Assembly (NCBI GenBank): GCA_037576195.1
Contig: CM075101.1
Coordinates: 42,718,001-42,782,000, forward strand
Reading direction: 5' to 3'
DNA: 64,000 nucleotides
DNA from: Phytoseiulus persimilis
Taxonomy: Eukaryota > Arthropoda > Arachnida > Mesostigmata > Phytoseiidae
A model generated the notes under the pieces. The model did no database searches. It saw only the letters and a list, made by a program, of their open reading frames with translations, and was not told the DNA's origin. The position numbers were made by a program, and so were the translations under genes. Position 1 is the first letter of the stretch. Every line of letters starts with the position of its first letter. Positions 40,477-48,660 of this stretch are shown here, in pieces.

Positions 40477-40636
40477 GTTCCTCCTCGCGACTTATGGATT
40501 GCTAGTGCGCTGACAGGAGCGGGAATTGGAGTCGGCTACATTTTATTCTACTTCAAACTTTTATACTTGCTGATCGTCATCCGATTTGTGCTCATTGCTC
40601 TTCGAGAACTTCTGATTTGGAACGGGTATGTGGTCT
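40477..40636 (+). CDS. Candidate membrane-protein exon cut by the copia insertion
   Basis: After an AAG acceptor-like site the + strand stays open to the copia target site and encodes two hydrophobic segments (ASALTGAGIGVGYILFYF and LLYLLIVIRFVLIALREL). The frame is cut at 40636, where the copia LTR begins. On the far side of the element (from 47311) the frame would remain open for some 70 codons, antisense to the Helitron remnant. The gene is unknown; this could be a host exon disrupted by the insertion or chance hydrophobic coding. Confidence 0.28.
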
Positions 40637-41099
40637 TGATAGGACTGGAAGTCGTAGGGTTTGAAGGTAGAGGTTCGAAGGTGTGGAACACTAGCTCAGT
40701 TGACAACAAGAACGACAACGCAAGAGACGTGTAGAGTAGAAGGCTCTATACCACAGTGAAGTTTATTCGAAAAAAGAGGGTCCTTATATACCTAGAAGGG
40801 GAGCGTAGCTCTCCCATGATTGGTCTAGAGTCCAGACACCAGATGAGTCACATCTTAACACAAGTCGACAGATGGTCTAGTTTGTAGGTCGGAGGGGTTG
40901 TAAACCCGACTCCGTACTCTTGGTTTTATGTGGACTGTCTGTATCAGTCCCTTACATCTGCTGTCGGGGTTGGAACCCCGATTTCGTTGCATTTCCCAGA
41001 CGTCGTGACTTGGGAGTACTGTGAGTCATCTGAGTGTGTCATGCTCTCAGACGCGTGCGAGATCTGAGCCCGACAGGCTTCAGATTCTGATCTCCAACA
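40637..41099 (-). repeat. Copia 3' LTR (463 bp)
   Basis: On the - strand it starts TGTTGGAG and ends CTATCA. About 98% identical to the LTR at 46848-47310. GGTCT at 40632-40636 is one copy of the target duplication. Confidence 0.94.
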
Positions 41100-41107
41100 T
41101 CCCCTCT
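41100..41107 (-). other. Copia polypurine tract
   Basis: Reads AGAGGGGA on the - strand, directly before the 3' LTR. Confidence 0.8.
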
Positions 41108-41668
41108 GGCTGTCGAGTCCGAAGATCTCGCAGCTGAAAAAGTATTCGCAGGATAGTTCCGTGATGTGATTAAACATTGAATATCCCCTCTGTCTATGAA
41201 GATTGAGGAATCGGTCAAGTTCAAATTTTTCTTGAGAAAGTCGAGTGATTCCTTTACAGTGATTATTTCAGTTTGGATTGTTCGTGAATCCAAATATTCG
41301 CGGTAGTCGGTAGACGCTACAACCGTTCGTTTTTCATCGAGACTGCATGCGCAGTTAGGAAGTTCGACGTAGTTTCTCTGGAGAGCGTACTATGGGTACA
41401 GCCAGTTGGGGGGCATCTAAATAAAAGTTGAGGAAGTGTGAAATATGACCTTTTTCTTGGTGATTTGACCTGGAAATCATGATCAATGTGTCTCAAGATT
41501 TGTACCATTTTCCCCTCTCACAGGGAAGTAATGATTTCTTTCAATAAAGATGAAAATCCGTAAAGTTTTCGATGGTTATTCCAGATTTCTAGTTTGGTTG
41601 CCGAGAGTCGTTGATCCAAGTTGCGAGAATGAGGGAAAAAGTCGGTTGATTTCGCCCTAGGCGGATGG

Positions 41669-41678
41669 GATAAAAAGG
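41669..41678 (+). promoter_or_regulatory. TATA-like box of the antisense gene inside copia
   Basis: GATAAAAAGG on the + strand, about 47 bp upstream of the ATG at 41725. A TCAGAGTACAGTT stretch 20-35 bp downstream could act as initiator, and TTCGTTC words follow. Position fits an RNA polymerase II core promoter directing transcription opposite to copia. Confidence 0.5.
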
Positions 41679-41724
41679 CGTGCTGAATTAGTTCAGAGTA
41701 CAGTTCGTTCCGAGTTCGTTCAGT

Positions 41725-42567
41725 ATGCATCTCCGCTCAGGGCTCCAGACTCGAGGAGTGCCCCTGGTGAGAAGAACCGAGACGGCGATTCAGCAATCCA
41801 TCCGCACCCGACGGCTGCCCGGGGTCCGCGTCGGAACCAGCGGAGGGCAGGAGCGAGTCCAGTCGGAGCCAGCTCAGAGGGATTTCACCGAGGCAGCGAC
41901 GTCCACGTTCACAATGGGCGACATCCTCAGCACGACGAAGGAGGCCAGCGACGACGAGCTCGGCTCCGTTCGGAGCAGTCCGCCGAGAGAGGAGACCCCG
42001 GAGGTCTGAGTGACCTCTGGGAGATGTGCTCGTGCGGCATCTGCCGAGTCGCCGTCATTGTGGCCGCAATGACGGTTGGTTTTGTGATCGGGCTGGTGAC
42101 AGGTGAGCTCTTAATTTTTCATTTTGTATAATTGTTTTTTTTTTTTCGGCATGATTTGGCATTGCGAGATAATTGAGGTTGTTGTCTTTGTAGGACTTGC
42201 CGTACGGGGCGACATGATGCCGGTTGCCGGCAGTCATTCAGGAAGCGCCGAGGTCACTCGGAGAGTGGTGGTTTCAGAGGAGAGCACGGTGGCGACCAGG
42301 GCAGCATGGGGGCCAAGCATTGCCGTGGGCCGTCCGAAAACGCCGGACGGCGAAGAAGAGAGCCCAGGAGGGATTGAGAGGATCAGTCTGGACGGTTTCG
42401 CCTGTCGATTAAGCGGCCCGTCGCTGACATGTTACAGTCCAGTGCAGCGACGGTGTGTTGTGTTGGCGAAGGGGCGGAACGTCAAGCCGGACACCGTTAT
42501 CGCGAAACGGGGAGGTCCGGTGGGGCTTCCGATATGTCGGGGTTACGATATTTTTGTTGAGTATTAG
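41725..42567 (+). pseudogene. Antisense spliced gene in copia: single-pass membrane protein
   Basis: Unknown family, encoded opposite to copia pol. Exon 1 runs from the ATG at 41725 to 42102; the intron is 42103-42193 (GTGAGC...TTTGTAG, 91 bp); exon 2 is 42194-42567. Splicing joins the two halves of one hydrophobic helix (VAVIVAAMTVGFVIGL before the intron, GLAV after it), strong internal support for the intron. The ~95-residue N-terminal part is Arg-rich, then acidic; the ~125-residue C-terminal part has four to five cysteines (FACRL, LTCYS, RRCVV, PICRG), suggesting a signal-anchor protein with a small disulfide domain. A one- or two-base lesion near 42005-42010 puts the N-terminal frame out of register with the membrane frame, so this copy seems broken. 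AATAAA signals lie 12 and 23 nt after the stop. Confidence 0.6.
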
Positions 42568-42578
42568 TCCAAATGGAG

Positions 42579-42595
42579 AATAAACCAAAAATAAA
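42579..42595 (+). terminator. Poly(A) signals of the antisense gene
   Basis: Two AATAAA hexamers (42579-42584 and 42590-42595), followed by a GT-rich stretch (TCTGTGTTGTGTTTATT), the usual layout of an animal cleavage/polyadenylation site. Confidence 0.65.
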
Positions 42596-42732
42596 TTCCA
42601 ATCCGGAATCTGTGTTGTGTTTATTAATTGAAGATATGGCGTTCATGCATATGTCTGAGTAACTTGGGATTTTGGATACAGCTATTGTTGATGATTGAGG
42701 GCACTTGGCATGCATTACATAGTTGAAGAGGT

Positions 42733-43699
42733 TCAGACAGAACCACTGTGACTACTAGAACTGGACTCCGGCCAGTCGATTGGTTGAGCGCGTTTCAGCT
42801 CAATTATCGTTTTGAGTAGCTGTGTTTTCAGCTCGTAATTCTCGTTAAGGAGATCGAGTAATTGTTGTCGATCTTTGGGATTGCTTTCTGTTGAGAGTTT
42901 CGAGTTGCTCAATGTGATCACACAAGTATTTGGAGGCTGTTGATTCCTCTAGTTCGTGTTCGAGACGAGCAATTTTCTTTTGATAGAATGCGCGTCCGTC
43001 ATGCCAGTTTCCTCTTTCTCGATCATTGAGGCGCTGTTTAGCCTCTGATTCAGCGCGTAGATCGTAGACTTTTTGCTTGAGCATGCGGATCTCTGTCTCA
43101 GCGAGCTCAAGTTGACGAGCTTCTTCTGATACGGCAGGGTCATCCGCACCAGTCGGAATCGACGGGCTGTAGACTTCTTCGTCTAGATAGTCTGGATCCG
43201 CCTTTAGGTGGCCAGCCGATGCAGGCCGAGTGTTCTCAGGCGCAGGTTCCGTGGAAATCTCTTGTGAGGAGCTTTGCGATTTTTGTCGCAGGCATTCGAC
43301 AGCGTATTCTAGATCCGAAATCTTCTTTTGATTTGTGGCGCACTCCACGATTAGTGTTCCGGCATATTCTGCCGATCCGAGTGCAGGGGTCGTCACTCCA
43401 GCGCGGCGTGCCGCGGTGTGGAGCAGTTTCGCTTTTTCGTTGAATTCAGGCGCGACTGCCTATCTGTAGTAGAATCGGGATTGTTCATCCATTTGGGGCC
43501 TAAGGCGGTCTGACGCCTTCTGAGCAACATCGCGTGGAACACGATGCAGATCCTGGAGTTCCAGTGCGTGAATCCAGAAAGGTGACTGTTTGGGCATAGT
43601 GCAGCGATTGGGGGGAAACCAAGCGATGGGATACTGGCGGTCGGGGCAAACTGCGTCCAAGGAACCAAGGAAAAACACGAGGGACCTGGAGGTGTACAT
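42733..43699 (-). pseudogene. Coiled-coil ORF in the copia 3' region
   Basis: Unknown family, same strand as copia pol. From the ATG at 43699 about 80 residues (MYTSRSLVFFLGSLDAVCPD...) reach a single in-frame TAG at about 43457. The same frame continues for some 200 residues to 42845: SDLEYAVECLRQKS, an acidic/Pro-rich linker, then ELAETEIRMLKQKVYDLRAE and KKIARLEHELEES with leucine heptads. A frameshift near 42895 then moves the coil into the next frame, which ends at 42733 (LLDLLNENYELKTQLLKTI...). So it is a ~320-residue protein of mostly coiled coil, broken by one stop and one frameshift. It could be structural, but nothing in it resembles copia Gag. Confidence 0.6.
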
Positions 43700-43985
43700 C
43701 AGGTTAATACCGTGATATCATGCCATGCCGAAGGAGAATCATGCGAGAGAAGTGGAAGAAGTGAATAGAGGCCGAAGAAGTGCTCTGAGGAACAGAGAGA
43801 GAAAAGATGCGTATGAACCACGCACAGCACAGCTAGGTGCCTCTTTCGGATACGTCGCAGATTCACGGCGGTTTGGAGGGCCATGGAAGAATTGAATTGA
43901 GCATTCCGAGTTGTTTGTGCTGCTTGAGTTGCATGCTAGGACCGAATGGGTAAAATAGGAATGAAGTGCATCGGATAAATGAGAT

Positions 43986-44472
43986 CTAGGGTTGAGAGAC
44001 GAGCTCCGTGGTTGGCATGAAGGGGCCATCAACTGCCGGGTTTGGCGATGGGTTCGCAAATGAATGATAGCTTCTGCGCTTATCGTAGATCATGCAAAGG
44101 ACCGTGATTCCCAGAAAAAACGGCCAATGCGAGTATAGCGCCTGCACTTGCGAAAGCATAGTGCAGAAACCTGTTGTCAATGATGACAGGGGGGAGAACG
44201 GGATAGTGTTGATCCCGGAATTCTCCCCTTTGTTCGCCACCCACAGCAGGAAGAAGGGGCCTCAGACAGACCACGGACTCGGATGCCTCATTGTAGCATG
44301 CCGATGCTGAGCGTGTACAGGCGCATTGGAAACCGGTTGGTTTCTTGCTTATTGTACAGCTGATGTTTAATGAAACACAGGCGTCATCGCAGTCTTCGAA
44401 GCGAAAATAGTTCGGAGACGCGGATTGGACAGAGAGAACGTAGAGCGTGAACAAGATTGTGGTAGCGGCCAT
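43986..44472 (-). pseudogene. Env-like signal-peptide/TM ORF downstream of copia pol
   Basis: The ATG at 44472 lies inside the last 105 nt of pol in another frame. Residues 1-17 form a signal peptide (MAATTILFTLYVLSVQS). The ectodomain has seven cysteines between residues 28 and 69 and a glycosylation site (NIS, residue 36). A hydrophobic segment begins near residue 108 (HYAFASAGAILALAVF). The frame stops at 44080; a length change in a T run near 44115 shifts it out of the frame that holds a basic stop-transfer stretch and a short cytoplasmic tail ending at 43986. As read, the anchor is broken. Position (3' of pol, overlapping it) and topology are those of retrovirus-like env genes, but the ectodomain is far smaller than known Env proteins and has no fusion peptide or furin site I can see. 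Capture of a small host secreted gene is an alternative. Confidence 0.55.
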
Positions 44473-46490
44473 GGTCGCAAACCGATCAGTGTTCGGAGTC
44501 GCTCGAAGATTGGTTTGTGAAGTGGTTTCGTCAGACCGTCACTGACATTCTCTGTCGTCGGAATATATCGATATTCGACTTGTTTACGTTCGTGTAGTTG
44601 ACGAATGAAGAAGAATCTCGTGGAAATGTGTTTTGTACGCTTGTGGAATACTGGATTCTCTATGAGCTTCATCGCTCCAATGTTGTCCACGAAGATCACT
44701 GGACGAATAGTGATTCGTAATTTTTGGAAGAGTGTTCGAAGCCAGAGAGCAGACTTTGAGCAGTCAGTGACCGCTATGAACTCGCTCTCGGTGGAGGATA
44801 GTGAGACTGATCGTTGCTGTTGGGAAGAACACAGGACTGGACCGCCGGCAAGTGTGACAAGTGAGCCACTCACCGAGCGTCGGGTCTGTTTACGAGCAGC
44901 AAAATCGGCGTCCGAATAAAGCTTGAGCGTTTCAGCTAGCGGAGTGGACGAGCTTCCGGAGTAAACAATTGACAGGTTGGGTGTCGCCTGCAAGTAACGC
45001 AGGATCTTGAGTGCTGCCTGCCAGTGTTGTTCTGAATCGTTCTCAGGGAAGCGAGCTAGGAAACCCACGGAGAAACAGACATCTGGTCGCGTACAGATAG
45101 ATAAGAACATGAGAGCGCCAAGAAGTTGGCGATAAGGTCGATCTTCTGCGCGAGTTTCAGTTGTAGGCTCAATGTCGTATATTCCCGACTCTGCGGGAAT
45201 TGAGACGGGACGACAGTCCTCAAGATTGAACCTTTTCAGGATGTTTTTGATGTACTTGTACTGGTTGAGCCAGATATTGTAATCGGAATCGATATGAATC
45301 TGAATGCCAGGGAAAAGACTCAGAGGAGAAGTCTTGAGTTTGAATGATTCTCCAGCTTGGCAAGTGTATCTGTAATCAAGTGTTCATGCGTCGAGGCGAT
45401 TAGCCCATCATCGACGTACACTGCTAGCATTAGGAGTTCGCCATTTGCGCCGTGCCAGTAGAATAGGCAGTGATCGGCTTGGCTTTGAGTGAAGTTGAGA
45501 TTCCGTAGAACATCTGCCAATTTTTGATCCCAGCATCGCGGAGCTTGTTTGAGCCCGTATAGACTTTTGTGCAACAGGCATACCCTGCCGGTGTCATCTG
45601 ACCATCCGGGGGGTTGAGTCATCCAGATTTGTTCCTGGAGATCGCCATAGAGGAAGGCGGTAGTTACGTCAAATTGACGAAGTTTTAGACGCATTGATGC
45701 ACTCGTGGCAAGCAAAACGCGGACAGTGTCCAGCCTGGCAACAGGGCTAAAGAGCTCCTGAAATTCTTGACCTGGAATTTGATTATAACCGCGAATAACG
45801 AGACGTGCACGTTATCGGTCTATTTCATTTTCAGCATTGGTTTTCCTGCGGAAGACCCAGCGACAAGTTACGGGTTTCTTGTTCTGTGTTGGGTCGACCA
45901 ATGTCCAAACACCATGAGCTTTAAGTGCGGCCATTTCCTCAGCCATTGCTTCTTTCCAGTACTCTGCTTCTGGACTCGCAAGTGCCTGTGCAAGAGTCTG
46001 CGGCTCAGGTGAAGAGGGCGCTGCTAGCTGCACCTCTGTTTCGTAGCGCTTTGGCTTACGAAAGTTCGTACGGCGTCGAAGGTTCATTGTCATTGGCTCC
46101 ATTGGGGGTATCGTGATCGAGCGCGTAGCTGCAGAATCACTTTCGTCAGCCGAGTCAAATGCTCCAGGCGGAAAGGGCTCCTCGTCAGGATGCCGGTCCT
46201 CAACGATGCTATCGCAATCGGAGGAATCATGCGCGTCCATGAAATCAGTGGCTTCATCGGCGGTTCCCAAACCGGGGACATGCGCTGCACTCTTTGGTGC
46301 CTTCCCCAAGAACCTGACGTCTTTGTTTTCCCTAATTGTGGGAGGAGAATCTTGGGTAGAAATGCTGAAGTACGTGGCTATCAGAACGGGGGAGATTGAG
46401 TTAAGGATGATTGTTTTGGCCATGGCGTTCGCAGCTTGATAGCCGGTCGCTGTTATGACAAGATCGCCAGAAACAACTTTGTAGGCAAAC
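44367..46490 (-). pseudogene. pol: Copia reverse transcriptase and RNase H
   Basis: Begins in the linker before RT (LRRRTNFRKPKRYETE), then EAEYWKEAMAEEMAALKAHG, the copia RT start, and VTCRWVFRRKTN. A TAA near 45812 interrupts it in frame. Then come FDVTTAFLYGDLQEQIWM (catalytic Asp), LYGLKQAPRCWD and the active-site box AVYVDDGLIAS. A frameshift near 45335 precedes the connection region (about 45300-45110). RNase H follows: LKLYSDADFAARKQTRRS, SSTESEFIA, VDNIGAMKL, KHISTRFFFI, stop at 44367. Upstream of the linker the integrase catalytic core is absent: Gag sequence passes into the linker within about 30 residues (near 46380-46280), an internal deletion. Confidence 0.9.
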
Positions 46491-46709
46491 AACTTTGTCA
46501 CCGCTGTTTTGCAGGACCACGGTGACCAGTGAAGACCACGCGAGCCAGTTTCTGCCATCATCAGCCAATGTGATGCTGCATGCATGATTGGATTTTGAAC
46601 CAGATCCGCTTGCGGAAGAGGAGTCAGCCATCACTCTCTCTTCAGGAGACTCTAGGAGCTCGTAATCGTCAAGATTAAACGGAGCTTCGGTCTCTGGAGC
46701 ACTTTGCAT
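46490..46709 (-). pseudogene. Copia Gag N-terminal remnant
   Basis: Starts at the ATG at 46709 with an acidic leader, then the copia Gag signature of Trp-containing helices (GRNWLAWSSLVTVVL). A frameshift near 46500 moves the rest (KLFAYKVVSGDLVI, ANAMAKTIILNSISP) into the neighbouring frame, where the sequence then runs into the Pol linker. The rest of Gag, including the CCHC knuckle, is gone. Confidence 0.7.
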
Positions 46710-46847
46710 GGGCCGAAGGAATATACCTGACTGCAACTGTATCAGCTGAGCTGTAGCTAGGTGAGTAGGTAGAGGTCAGCTTACCCGACAGCAGTCGATC
46801 GCGAAGTCACGCCGTGTCGTCACGTAGCGAATACGTGGCTGATAACG

Positions 46848-47310
46848 TGATAGGACTTGAAGTCGTAGGGTTTGAAGGTAGAGGATCGAAGGTGTGGAAC
46901 ACTAGCTCAGTTGACAACGAGAGTGACAACGCAAGAGACGTGTAGAGTAGAAGGCTCTGTACCACAGTGAAGTTTATTCGAAAAAAGAGGGTCGTTATAT
47001 ACCTAGAAGGGGAGCGTGGCTCTCCCATGATTGGTCTAGAGTCCAGACACCAGATGAGTCACATCTTAACATAAGTTGACAGATGGTCTAGTTTGTAGGT
47101 CGGAGGGGTTGTAAACCCGACTCCGTACTCTTGGTTTTATGTGGACTGTCTGTATCAGTCCCTTACATCTGCTGTCGGGGTTGGAACCCCGATTTCGTTG
47201 CATTTCTCAGACGTCGTGACTTGGGAGTACTGTGAGTCATCTGAGTGTGTCATGCTCTCAGACGCGTGCGAGATCTGAGCCCGACAGGCTTCAGATTCTG
47301 ATCTCCAACA
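46848..47310 (-). repeat. Copia 5' LTR (463 bp)
   Basis: On the - strand TGTTGGAG...CTATCA, matching the 3' LTR with about ten substitutions. Flanked by GGTCT at 47311-47315. No obvious tRNA-matching primer site follows it on the - strand. Confidence 0.94.
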
Positions 47311-48660
47311 GGTCTGTTTTTCAATCGTTTCAGACGTCCTATATAGTCGATGTCGAATTCTAGCCGCACACGTTTCGACCTGTTGTCGTCACACGGACTC
47401 GGGCAATGTTCAACGTGACGTAAGTCCAACGATTGCCACAGAACAGCTCTACCTCCTAGAGATCGCTGTACAGTGCTGTACACGGGAGCAGCATTGACTG
47501 GTGGTAATTGTTCAAGGCCGCCGCATGCGATCAAATCTAAATCGCCAAAGTTGTTTTCGTATTCGCAATTCATTCCTCGTAGTCGTGAGTTGACCGAATG
47601 GATAACATGTGAACTGCACATACTTATTTCGTCTATGATCACACATTTAACGTTTTTCAGTAGATGGCGATGATTTTGGAGCACTTCATTGGGGAGTTGC
47701 GTCGTTTGTCTCGATAGAGTGAGTCGGAAAGCGTCATGAACTGTTAATCCGTTTATCACGACCGCTGCTTTGCCCGTTGTTGCTGTTGCTATGTATGCAT
47801 TGTTCAATGAGTTATGCTGATGAGTATAGCGTTTGTGTGTTTCCATTAGAGCTTCCAAAGTGAATGTTTTCCCACAACCCGCTGGACCTGTCAGAAAAAT
47901 TTGGATCGGTTCTCGGTTTGGATCGTGTGGGCGATGTATGACTTCCAATTCGAGTTCGCGTTGCTCGGTATTTGGTTCACACATCGCAGGCGCAGTAGTC
48001 CTCTTCGCTCATGCAATTACTTCTGGGACTGGTCGCGCTCACAGAGGTTGGGATTGTACGTTCATTCAGATCATCATTATTCGCTGGTAACGGGGAGTTT
48101 ACGGAGTCCTTGCTTTTCTCAGGAGAGTCGGTGACAATTTCTTCGTTCATGGAGCACATTTCTTCAACTTCACGTAGAAATGTTCCGATGTTAGCGTTGC
48201 TTTCGAATTCTTTCCGCCTCTCCTGTATCTCAAGTTTTCTTGCTTCAGATATTTGAGTTAAGGTATCGCGATCGAGAACGCGATAGTCATCTACAGGTTC
48301 GTCGTCATACATCGTTTGTGCTACCCCAGCATCTTCATCGTTTCTTTCATTCTCATAGGATCTTTCCCCAGGGCTATACAACGCTGCCAATCGCGCTAGC
48401 GTTGTATTTTCAATGTCACTCTGCGCATGAGCTGAGTTTGATCGAGTTCTGGATTCGCTTCATGTATCATTGTCCGTTCTCGATGCAATTGACTTATTCC
48501 TCGATTGAATTTGTTGACATACTCGACAACATAGGCGGCACAGGTATACGGATCGAGTATGATTTGCAGATCCATGTTCGAATCTAGCACGGACGCTATC
48601 CAAGGGTTGAATGTATTCACGCAGATTTGAGTCTTATCTCACTTGAACATCATGAATGGG
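47311..48660 (-). pseudogene. Helitron Rep/helicase remnant
   Basis: Part of a rolling-circle transposon protein. Near 48640-48450 lies the Helitron-specific block NTFNPWIASVL ... DPYTCAAYVVEYVNKFNRG. Next (48390-47977) comes a Glu/Ser-rich linker in another frame. From about 47984 a PIF1-type helicase follows: Walker A GPAGCGKTFTLEAL, ATTGKAAVVINGLTVH, Walker B-type CVIIDEISMCS, and the LDLIACGGLEQLPPV block. After LWQSLD the match fades and the frame runs into the copia LTR. Both the N-terminal Rep (HUH) domain and the C-terminal helicase motifs are missing, so it is a fragment with at least one frameshift. Confidence 0.85.

Follow-up and report, generated by a model that had tools for sequence, protein, structure and literature searches.

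A first-pass annotation of a 64,000-nucleotide stretch of the Phytoseiulus persimilis genome (contig CM075101.1, positions 42,718,001 to 42,782,000; hereafter the window) described a copia-type long terminal repeat (LTR) retrotransposon with three extra genes between pol and its 3' LTR. In animals, copia elements are generally regarded as having little beyond gag and pol, and the locus raises the question of whether these genes belong to the element or were captured once by a single copy. All three are present in the window: an open reading frame (ORF) with a signal peptide, a cysteine-rich region and a transmembrane (TM) helix (ORF2), a coiled-coil ORF (ORF3), and a spliced gene on the opposite strand (the antisense gene). 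As described below, the cargo is a property of the element, and the antisense gene takes deeply diverged forms that are exchanged, as the alignments indicate, between otherwise similar copies.

The extra genes belong to a family of copia elements

A search of the host genome with the LTR gave 40 scored places among 93 candidates, and 20 copies or pieces were retrieved for comparison. Seven copies are bounded by LTRs and are 7.7 to 8.9 kb long. Their LTR pairs differ by 0 to 1.5%, and those of an older copy, L026, by 5.4%. The check proposed in the first-pass annotation was for other copies with other target duplications: other copies do carry the extra genes, and five of the seven LTR-bounded copies have their own 5-bp target duplication; no matching duplication was found at the remaining two (L013 and L015). 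Read in the sense of the element, a copy runs from the LTR through gag, protease, and the first part of integrase to an in-frame TAG, followed by the remainder of pol, ORF2, ORF3, a cassette that holds the antisense gene, a conserved stretch of about 0.6 kb, a purine tract, and LTR. Extra-gene regions were also found in dozens of further places in the genome, and the antisense gene in the window's own form occurs in two other copies and in fragments. Among the material examined, neither copies without the region nor a single-copy host source for it was found. We conclude that all three extra genes belong to the family as a whole, which speaks against a one-off capture.

The element is a copia (Pseudoviridae) LTR retrotransposon, as judged by its gag type, its RVT_2 reverse transcriptase (RT), the position of integrase before RT, its TG..CA LTRs, and the 5-bp duplication. 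In the copy L009, Pfam recognized Retrotran_gag_2 (PF14223, expectation value [E] 4.4e-15) and RVT_2 (PF07727, E 7.2e-72), with SH3_retrovirus (E 1.3e-13) upstream of RVT_2 and a gag_pre-integrase match below the cutoff (E 7.8e-4). The core integrase model is not among the Pfam matches listed for L009, in which the TAG splits that region. Above the Pfam cutoff, only copia gag and pol domains were recognized in L009 and in the window. The L009 gag (837-2768) has a basic stretch rich in N, R, S, and Q past the gag domain, in which no CCHC knuckle was seen by eye.

The sense genes are constrained, with ratios of nonsynonymous to synonymous divergence (dN/dS) of 0.31 for gag, 0.22 for pol after the TAG, 0.33 for ORF2, and 0.29 for ORF3, where a gene from a given copy entered the comparison if a single match spanned more than 85% of it, damaged copies are under-represented, and the 16 sequences for ORF3 include L032, which is the same place as L018, hence 15 places. 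The synonymous bias that the first-pass annotation proposed to look for was observed across copies, with dN/dS between 0.2 and 0.35 except for one form A pair near 1.

An opposite-strand membrane protein gene in several forms

In the window, the antisense gene and its surroundings comprise the following features.

41725..42102, plus strand: exon 1, from the start codon to the end of the TM helix, with an internal frame break in this copy
42103..42193, plus strand: intron of 91 nt, GT...AG, phase 1, splitting a Gly codon
42194..42567, plus strand: exon 2, an ectodomain with four conserved cysteines, stop codon TAG at 42565-42567
42579..42584, plus strand: AATAAA polyadenylation signal
41742..42586: variable cassette, with limits placed where the window copy ceases to align with L009, which has another form
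41100..41741: conserved region from the cassette to the 3' LTR, with the polypurine tract at its end, beside 41099

The conserved region is a putative 5' leader or promoter of the antisense gene. Between some copies, the segment from ORF3 to this region does not align, while its flanks are 95 to 99% identical to L009 in L010-L015 and 92 to 94% identical in the window. The segment occurs in five forms (A to E) that share a plan on the opposite strand: a hydrophilic amino-terminal part with an LRSG-like start motif (similar in all five), a TM segment at the end of exon 1 (forms A, B, D, and E, and by eye form C), an intron, and an ectodomain. In forms A, B, C, and E, the intron is 76 to 98 nt long, GT...AG and phase 1, and interrupts a Gly codon. 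Exon 1 and a matching donor site are also present in form D (L014), in which no exon 2 was seen. An AATAAA lies 1 to 14 nt beyond the start of the stop codon in forms B, C, and E. Exon 2 of the window form is 33 to 42% identical to that of other forms, and its four cysteines are invariant across forms A, B, C, and E. These features mark the opposite-strand gene as evidently a real coding gene. Its product is predicted to be a signal-anchor type II protein, in which a hydrophilic amino-terminal half precedes a single TM helix and an ectodomain of disulfide type.

An apparent sixth form in L021/L022 was rejected; these loci instead hold, 3' of ORF3 and next to a form B exon 2, an extra AT-rich segment. 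An ORF in this segment has a DNA-binding domain of the Tc5 transposase type (HTH_Tnp_Tc5, E 8e-19), so that a DNA transposon seems to have inserted beside the form B gene.

The antisense gene moves between backbones

Exon 2 was compared across 16 places, taken from 26 near-full-length sequences after identical ones were merged, fragments and stop-bearing copies were excluded, and L002 and L030, which are one place, were counted once. Within form B, exon 2 is 96% identical with a dN/dS of 0.21, and within form C it is 87% identical with a dN/dS of 0.35. Between forms, amino-acid identity is 36 to 43%, the proportion of synonymous differences (pS) is 0.63 to 0.78, near saturation, and dN/dS is 0.17 to 0.52 where computable. 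For example, forms A (L019, L020) and B have 36% of exon 2 residues in common at a pS of 0.71. Because the synonymous sites are so strongly diverged, the forms are old rather than fast evolving.

The backbones that carry these forms are young. Most backbone pairs differ by 0.5 to 6%, with the older L016 and L026 differing by up to 11% in ORF2 and 14% in ORF3. Divergence between L009, which has form A with an interrupted exon 2, and L010, which has form B, is 0.52% in gag, 0.84% in pol, and 1.25% in ORF3. The nearest backbone carried the same form for 6 of 11 copies in gag, 6 of 12 in pol, 7 of 17 in ORF2, and 7 of 16 in ORF3 (6 of 15 without L032, which duplicates the place of L018), all of these being form B, and the counts include copies that are alone in their form and so unable to match (2 of 11, 3 of 12, 1 of 17, and 1 of 16, respectively). 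Because diverged forms sit in young backbones and the nearest backbone often carries another form, the opposite-strand gene has its own history and moves between backbones. The alignments indicate that the antisense coding region is a swappable cassette and that the gene is exchanged among elements. The first-pass view of this gene as cargo therefore stands insofar as it belongs to the family, but it is not a fixed component, since the cassette exists in four or more forms that are deeply diverged.

In forms A and C, a run of about ten A residues lies at the boundary between cassette and backbone, some 25 to 35 nt past the exon 2 stop (L009, L020, L012, and L024). As a lead, these runs could be a trace of how the cassette was joined.

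ORF2 and the antisense gene recur together in other copia families

ORF2 starts within the 3' end of pol and encodes 165 amino acids in L009: a hydrophobic amino-terminal stretch, a cysteine-rich region, a single TM helix, and a tail. It begins MAATT.. with a signal-like hydrophobic stretch, and about 105 residues precede the TM helix. We therefore predict a small type I membrane protein. This much of the earlier label "env-like" holds, but homology to Env was not found. A protein search of the host genome gave at least 150 ORF2 matches among 172 candidates, and many of these are intact frames, about 184 to 189 amino acids long and 22 to 37% identical. ORF2 is a widespread gene in the host genome and also lies beside other copia families. 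The protein database holds three relatives, two of them full length (P0001 and P0002) at 52% identity, and ORF2 and its relatives share cysteines and the motif VCLRP...GGE. Searching IMG/VR with an ORF2 profile gave no confirmed relative.

Other copia families, compared mostly by match coordinates, carry a related pair. L049 belongs to a different family (pol 67% identical over 307 nt, integrase match 52%) and has pol, an ORF2-type frame, and then an intact, intronless opposite-strand relative of 312 amino acids with the same ectodomain pattern, in which the four exon 2 cysteines also align. L050 represents a third family, with an antisense relative of 188 amino acids that retains three of the four cysteines and is adjoined by ORF2 and copia integrase matches. 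Weak matches to ORFs of 307 to 324 amino acids suggest that the L050 family has tandem antisense genes. A second opposite-strand stretch at L050:1345-1999 (+), between ORF2 and the 188-amino-acid relative, has a hydrophobic segment and a Thr/Pro-rich part.

Across the genome, an ORF2 match lies on the opposite strand no more than 6 kb upstream at 61 of 95 antisense-gene places, and on the same strand at 3 of 95; this count used 136 of the 150 listed ORF2 matches, with overlapping antisense matches merged by hand. Among 23 separate weak antisense matches, 8 have an opposite-strand ORF2 upstream, with a chance expectation of about 0.002 each. The relationship of the antisense genes between families rests on place, strand, and cysteine spacing; it is weak in sequence and repeated in place. 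The pair of ORF2 and antisense gene recurs in other copia families and is older than the family in the window.

ORF3 has a different distribution. In L009 it encodes a coiled-coil protein of 294 amino acids whose Pfam matches all fall below the cutoff (for example, TPR_MLP1_2 at E 0.0035). Its 98 matches in the host genome come from this family and decayed relatives, and the first seemingly unrelated match has an E of 0.25. A search of 5.8 billion proteins gave no relative at E 0.01. Because just ~160 nt separate the ORF2-type frame and the antisense gene in L049, that element has no room for ORF3. Consequently, the three extra genes, first read as one set, divide into a pair that predates the family and a family-specific addition, ORF3. 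A by-eye reading of ORF3 (MPKQSPFW...) as an HMG-box protein was unsupported by Pfam at E up to 1.

A conserved stop codon inside the integrase

The site is retained in 14 retrieved copies, among them the old L026, and all 14 have a TAG at the same codon, followed by CAATTC, and the frame beyond it is open and constrained. Further counts were made by hand among the best 150 of 338 candidate genome matches. Of the 24 listed matches that span the site with an identity of at least 78%, 23 contain a TAG (position within the match not given). A TAG is present also in all four listed at 65 to 69% identity, which are decayed and three of which look like repeats of one copy. None of the ten listed at 48 to 52% identity has it, two of the ten hold TAA, and five listed at 46% identity or less hold a TAG somewhere.

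UAG-CAR-YYA is a motif that promotes stop codon readthrough, and the context here, UAG-CAA-UUC, is one base off. Readthrough of the integrase TAG would be the simpler reading. The other possibility, which we regard as distinctly the lesser of the two but worth keeping in mind, is that the TAG is a dead founder mutation in a family that borrows pol in trans. The interior of integrase is an odd place for a stop, and the TAG is missing from the matches at 48 to 52% identity and from one of the 24 closest ones, all of which speak for a founder mutation. Such a mutation fits less well with the presence of the TAG in every retrieved copy that retains the site and in the 65 to 69% matches, with its near-motif context, or with the dN/dS of pol beyond the TAG, which is lower than that of gag, ORF2, or ORF3. 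A bypassed stop has been reported at gag in Candida Tca2, by a mechanism left open in the excerpted report (PMC2194720). Whichever holds, the family offers a natural case of a stop within integrase with constraint after it.

A proposed membrane module

One member of the pair is a small protein of predicted type I topology, and the other has a TM helix and a cysteine-bearing carboxy-terminal domain; both suggest work at membranes and hint at virus-like surface proteins in a group usually held to lack them. We lean, with some reserve, toward the reading that these copia elements carry a membrane module of two proteins, which may serve transmission or exclusion. In this proposal, ORF2 on the sense strand and the separate, spliced opposite-strand TM protein would form the module in the copia 3' region, with ORF3 as a family-specific coiled-coil protein. 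The cassette would most likely be exchanged between elements by template switching of co-packaged RNAs, by which old, diverged forms would circulate among young backbones. Both proteins may act at cell membranes in transmission of the element, by analogy with sORF2 of the MDG1 group, and the diverged forms might change partner or receptor specificity.

Several observations weigh against this proposal, beginning with the forms represented by one copy and the duplicated place in the nearest-backbone counts above. Form A provides a single exon 2 pair, with few changes and a dN/dS of about 1.0, and has no AATAAA within 120 nt. Pfam matched ORF2 to no Env, fusogen, or named family, and its best solved-structure match has an E of 0.21; likewise, the antisense protein matches no Env, fusogen, or named family, and its exon 2 has no solved-structure match. 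The exon 2 profile found no protein-database relative at E 1 among proteins near exon 2 in length. AlphaFold2 models were too poor for use, with mean predicted local distance difference test scores of 56 for the window exon 2 and 44 for the ORF2 relatives. Finally, antisense matches between families are weak (E of at least 0.004 for the L049 type against the window family and at least 0.01 for the L050 type), and 34 of 95 antisense places have no detected ORF2 neighbor.

We offer more tentatively, as a bolder and somewhat doubtful extension, that the antisense gene is a recognition-type polymorphic locus within a transposon. Its forms would be nearly as old as the family, kept by frequency-dependent selection while the cassette moves between young backbones, and with ORF2 it would make a two-component membrane system (type I plus type II), encoded on both strands of a copia element, for cell-to-cell transmission or exclusion. 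The opposite-strand gene combines very deep divergence with young surroundings, which makes it testable whether transposons keep recognition polymorphisms. Likewise, it becomes testable whether copia elements encode the surface proteins with which they pass from cell to cell.

A role in self-recognition or exclusion alone is less probable still, and we consider it unlikely. Here, the antisense protein would be a self-recognition or exclusion factor, made by resident copies, that blocks entry, packaging, or re-transposition of elements with the same form; rare forms would gain, and old forms would persist and be swapped by recombination. Very old forms (between-form pS of 0.63 to 0.78) in a family otherwise mostly 0.5 to 6% different would suit such a role, expression from the opposite strand would bypass the need for full-length RNA, and element-encoded control of copy number has been reported for yeast Ty1 (excerpts of PMC7055915). 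The computable between-form dN/dS values are all below 1 and give no direct indication of positive selection.

The cassette pattern might also have arisen if different members of one host gene family had been captured independently, one for each form, at the same site. We think this improbable, even though the cassette limits are sharp and the A runs at the 3' boundary of forms A and C are poly(A)-like, given that the intron is retained, that its position and phase are common to forms A, B, C, and E, and that the start motif is similar in all five forms. Moreover, 18 of the 20 loci L029-L048 hold other pieces of the element (L031 and L038 lie within or next to L021/L022), and a related gene occupies the same relative place in other copia families. 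It is barely credible that the antisense ORF is open by chance, or that it is only part of a regulatory antisense RNA: G+C-rich sequence promotes long open frames on several strands, but it would not account for amino-acid conservation despite near-saturated synonymous sites, conserved intron phase and cysteine spacing, or a relative in another family.

Comparison with known systems

Extra genes in LTR elements are known from several groups. Plant Sireviruses, as generally described, are likewise copia elements with an extra env-like ORF after pol; to our knowledge, that ORF is confined to plants and lies on the sense strand. Proteins encoded on the opposite strand of a retroelement include HBZ of human T-cell leukemia virus type 1 and ASP of human immunodeficiency virus type 1, which belong to different families and are likened here by description only.

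The publications below are cited from excerpts. In Drosophila, sORF2 of the MDG1-group elements 412, mdg1, and Stalker2 (Ty3/gypsy), the nearest case with a tested function, is reported to enable capsid transfer from somatic cells to the oocyte (PMC11952523). As in our case, it is a short, single-pass membrane protein of an LTR element without Env and has a plausible transmission role (PMC11952523). However, sORF2-like proteins are described as having 63 to 107 amino acids, an ectodomain of about 30 residues, and an N-myristoylation motif, and as lying upstream of gag save for some in Lepidoptera, with all candidates in forward orientation (PMC11952523). ORF2, in contrast, has 165 amino acids, a predicted signal peptide, and a cysteine-rich ectodomain, lies after pol in a copia element, and is accompanied by a second membrane gene in antisense. 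It thus lacks both the short ectodomain and the N-myristoylation motif expected of FAST/sORF2-type fusogens (as given in PMC11952523).

The antisense ORFs (aORFs) of the plant elements Grande, RIRE2, and Retand are conserved, ancient genes between pol and the 3' LTR, and gene23 of plant LTR elements is reported to have its own promoter (PMC7264820, PMC11963269). The gene described here is likewise an antisense coding gene conserved across copies. The Retand antisense ORFs mostly carry TRP28 and are predicted to bind DNA (PMC7264820, PMC11963269), unlike the membrane gene here; no TRP28 or other DNA-binding Pfam match was found in the window exon frames or the L049/L050 relatives, which the scan covered. 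Neither antisense membrane proteins nor the exchange of such genes among copies is mentioned in the excerpts of the two plant papers. Juno, Vesta, and TelKA of bdelloid rotifers are invertebrate LTR elements with diverse ORF3s, some with TM segments, and modular sharing, but their order is PR-RT-RH-IN, which is not that of copia, and their modules are different ORF types rather than diverged forms at one site (PMC5408684). An antisense strand is not noted in the excerpts of that report.

Among the papers listed in our searches of the open-licence literature, neither an antisense membrane gene in animal copia nor deep forms of one gene traded between copies was seen. Antisense extra ORFs are already known in plant elements; a membrane antisense gene traded, as it appears, as a cassette in copia would be the new aspect. 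In a single arthropod, more than one copia family combines a membrane gene in sense with another on the opposite strand. The genome accords with an arthropod host in its 112 matches to the cuticle family PF00379, a family characteristic of arthropods; a search for the telomeric repeat TTAGG, made with a tool that passes over simple repeats, gave 0 matches.

The copy in the window

The element in the window reads on the minus strand, and its other features are as follows.

46848..47310, minus strand: 5' LTR, ends TG..CA
40637..41099, minus strand: 3' LTR, paired with the 5' LTR
47311..47315: target-site duplication copy on the 5' side, AGACC in element sense
40632..40636: target-site duplication copy on the 3' side, AGACC in element sense
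46401..46775, minus strand: gag amino-terminal remnant
44367..46630, minus strand: pol remnant (RT/RNase H) in three frames, 45812-46630, 45320-45811, and 44367-45383
44080..44538, minus strand: ORF2, with signal peptide, cysteine-rich ectodomain, and TM helix, its frame broken in the TM region
42736..43597, minus strand: ORF3, coiled-coil, broken here, with coiled-coil frame pieces over 42733-43717

The element outlined by the first-pass annotation is confirmed. The LTRs agree at 452 of 463 sites (97.6% identity, or 2.4% divergence), have TG..CA ends, and are flanked on either side by AGACC. The final pol frame ends at 44367, and the polypurine tract CCAGAGGGGA directly adjoins the 3' LTR. 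The window element is a decayed copy that has lost about 2.0 kb relative to L009 (L009 954-2947), with the junction near 46349-46355; the deletion takes most of gag, protease, and much of integrase. Pol, ORF2, ORF3, and antisense exon 1 are each spread over more than one reading frame, and Pfam recognizes RVT_2 in the middle pol piece (E 1.2e-46).

Next to the 5' LTR, ORFs at 47250-48459 on the minus strand include a P-loop (GPAGCGKT) and by eye resemble a PIF1/Helitron-type helicase. The window element seems to have inserted into another mobile element. Elsewhere in the genome, L025 (C3:16539000-16548900) and L024 (C2:7015000-7024900) hold tandem arrays of 3' parts of the element. One type of unit, about 1.3 kb long, comprises ORF3 and the end of ORF2; the other, about 1.72 kb long and present three times, comprises ORF3 and antisense exon 2.

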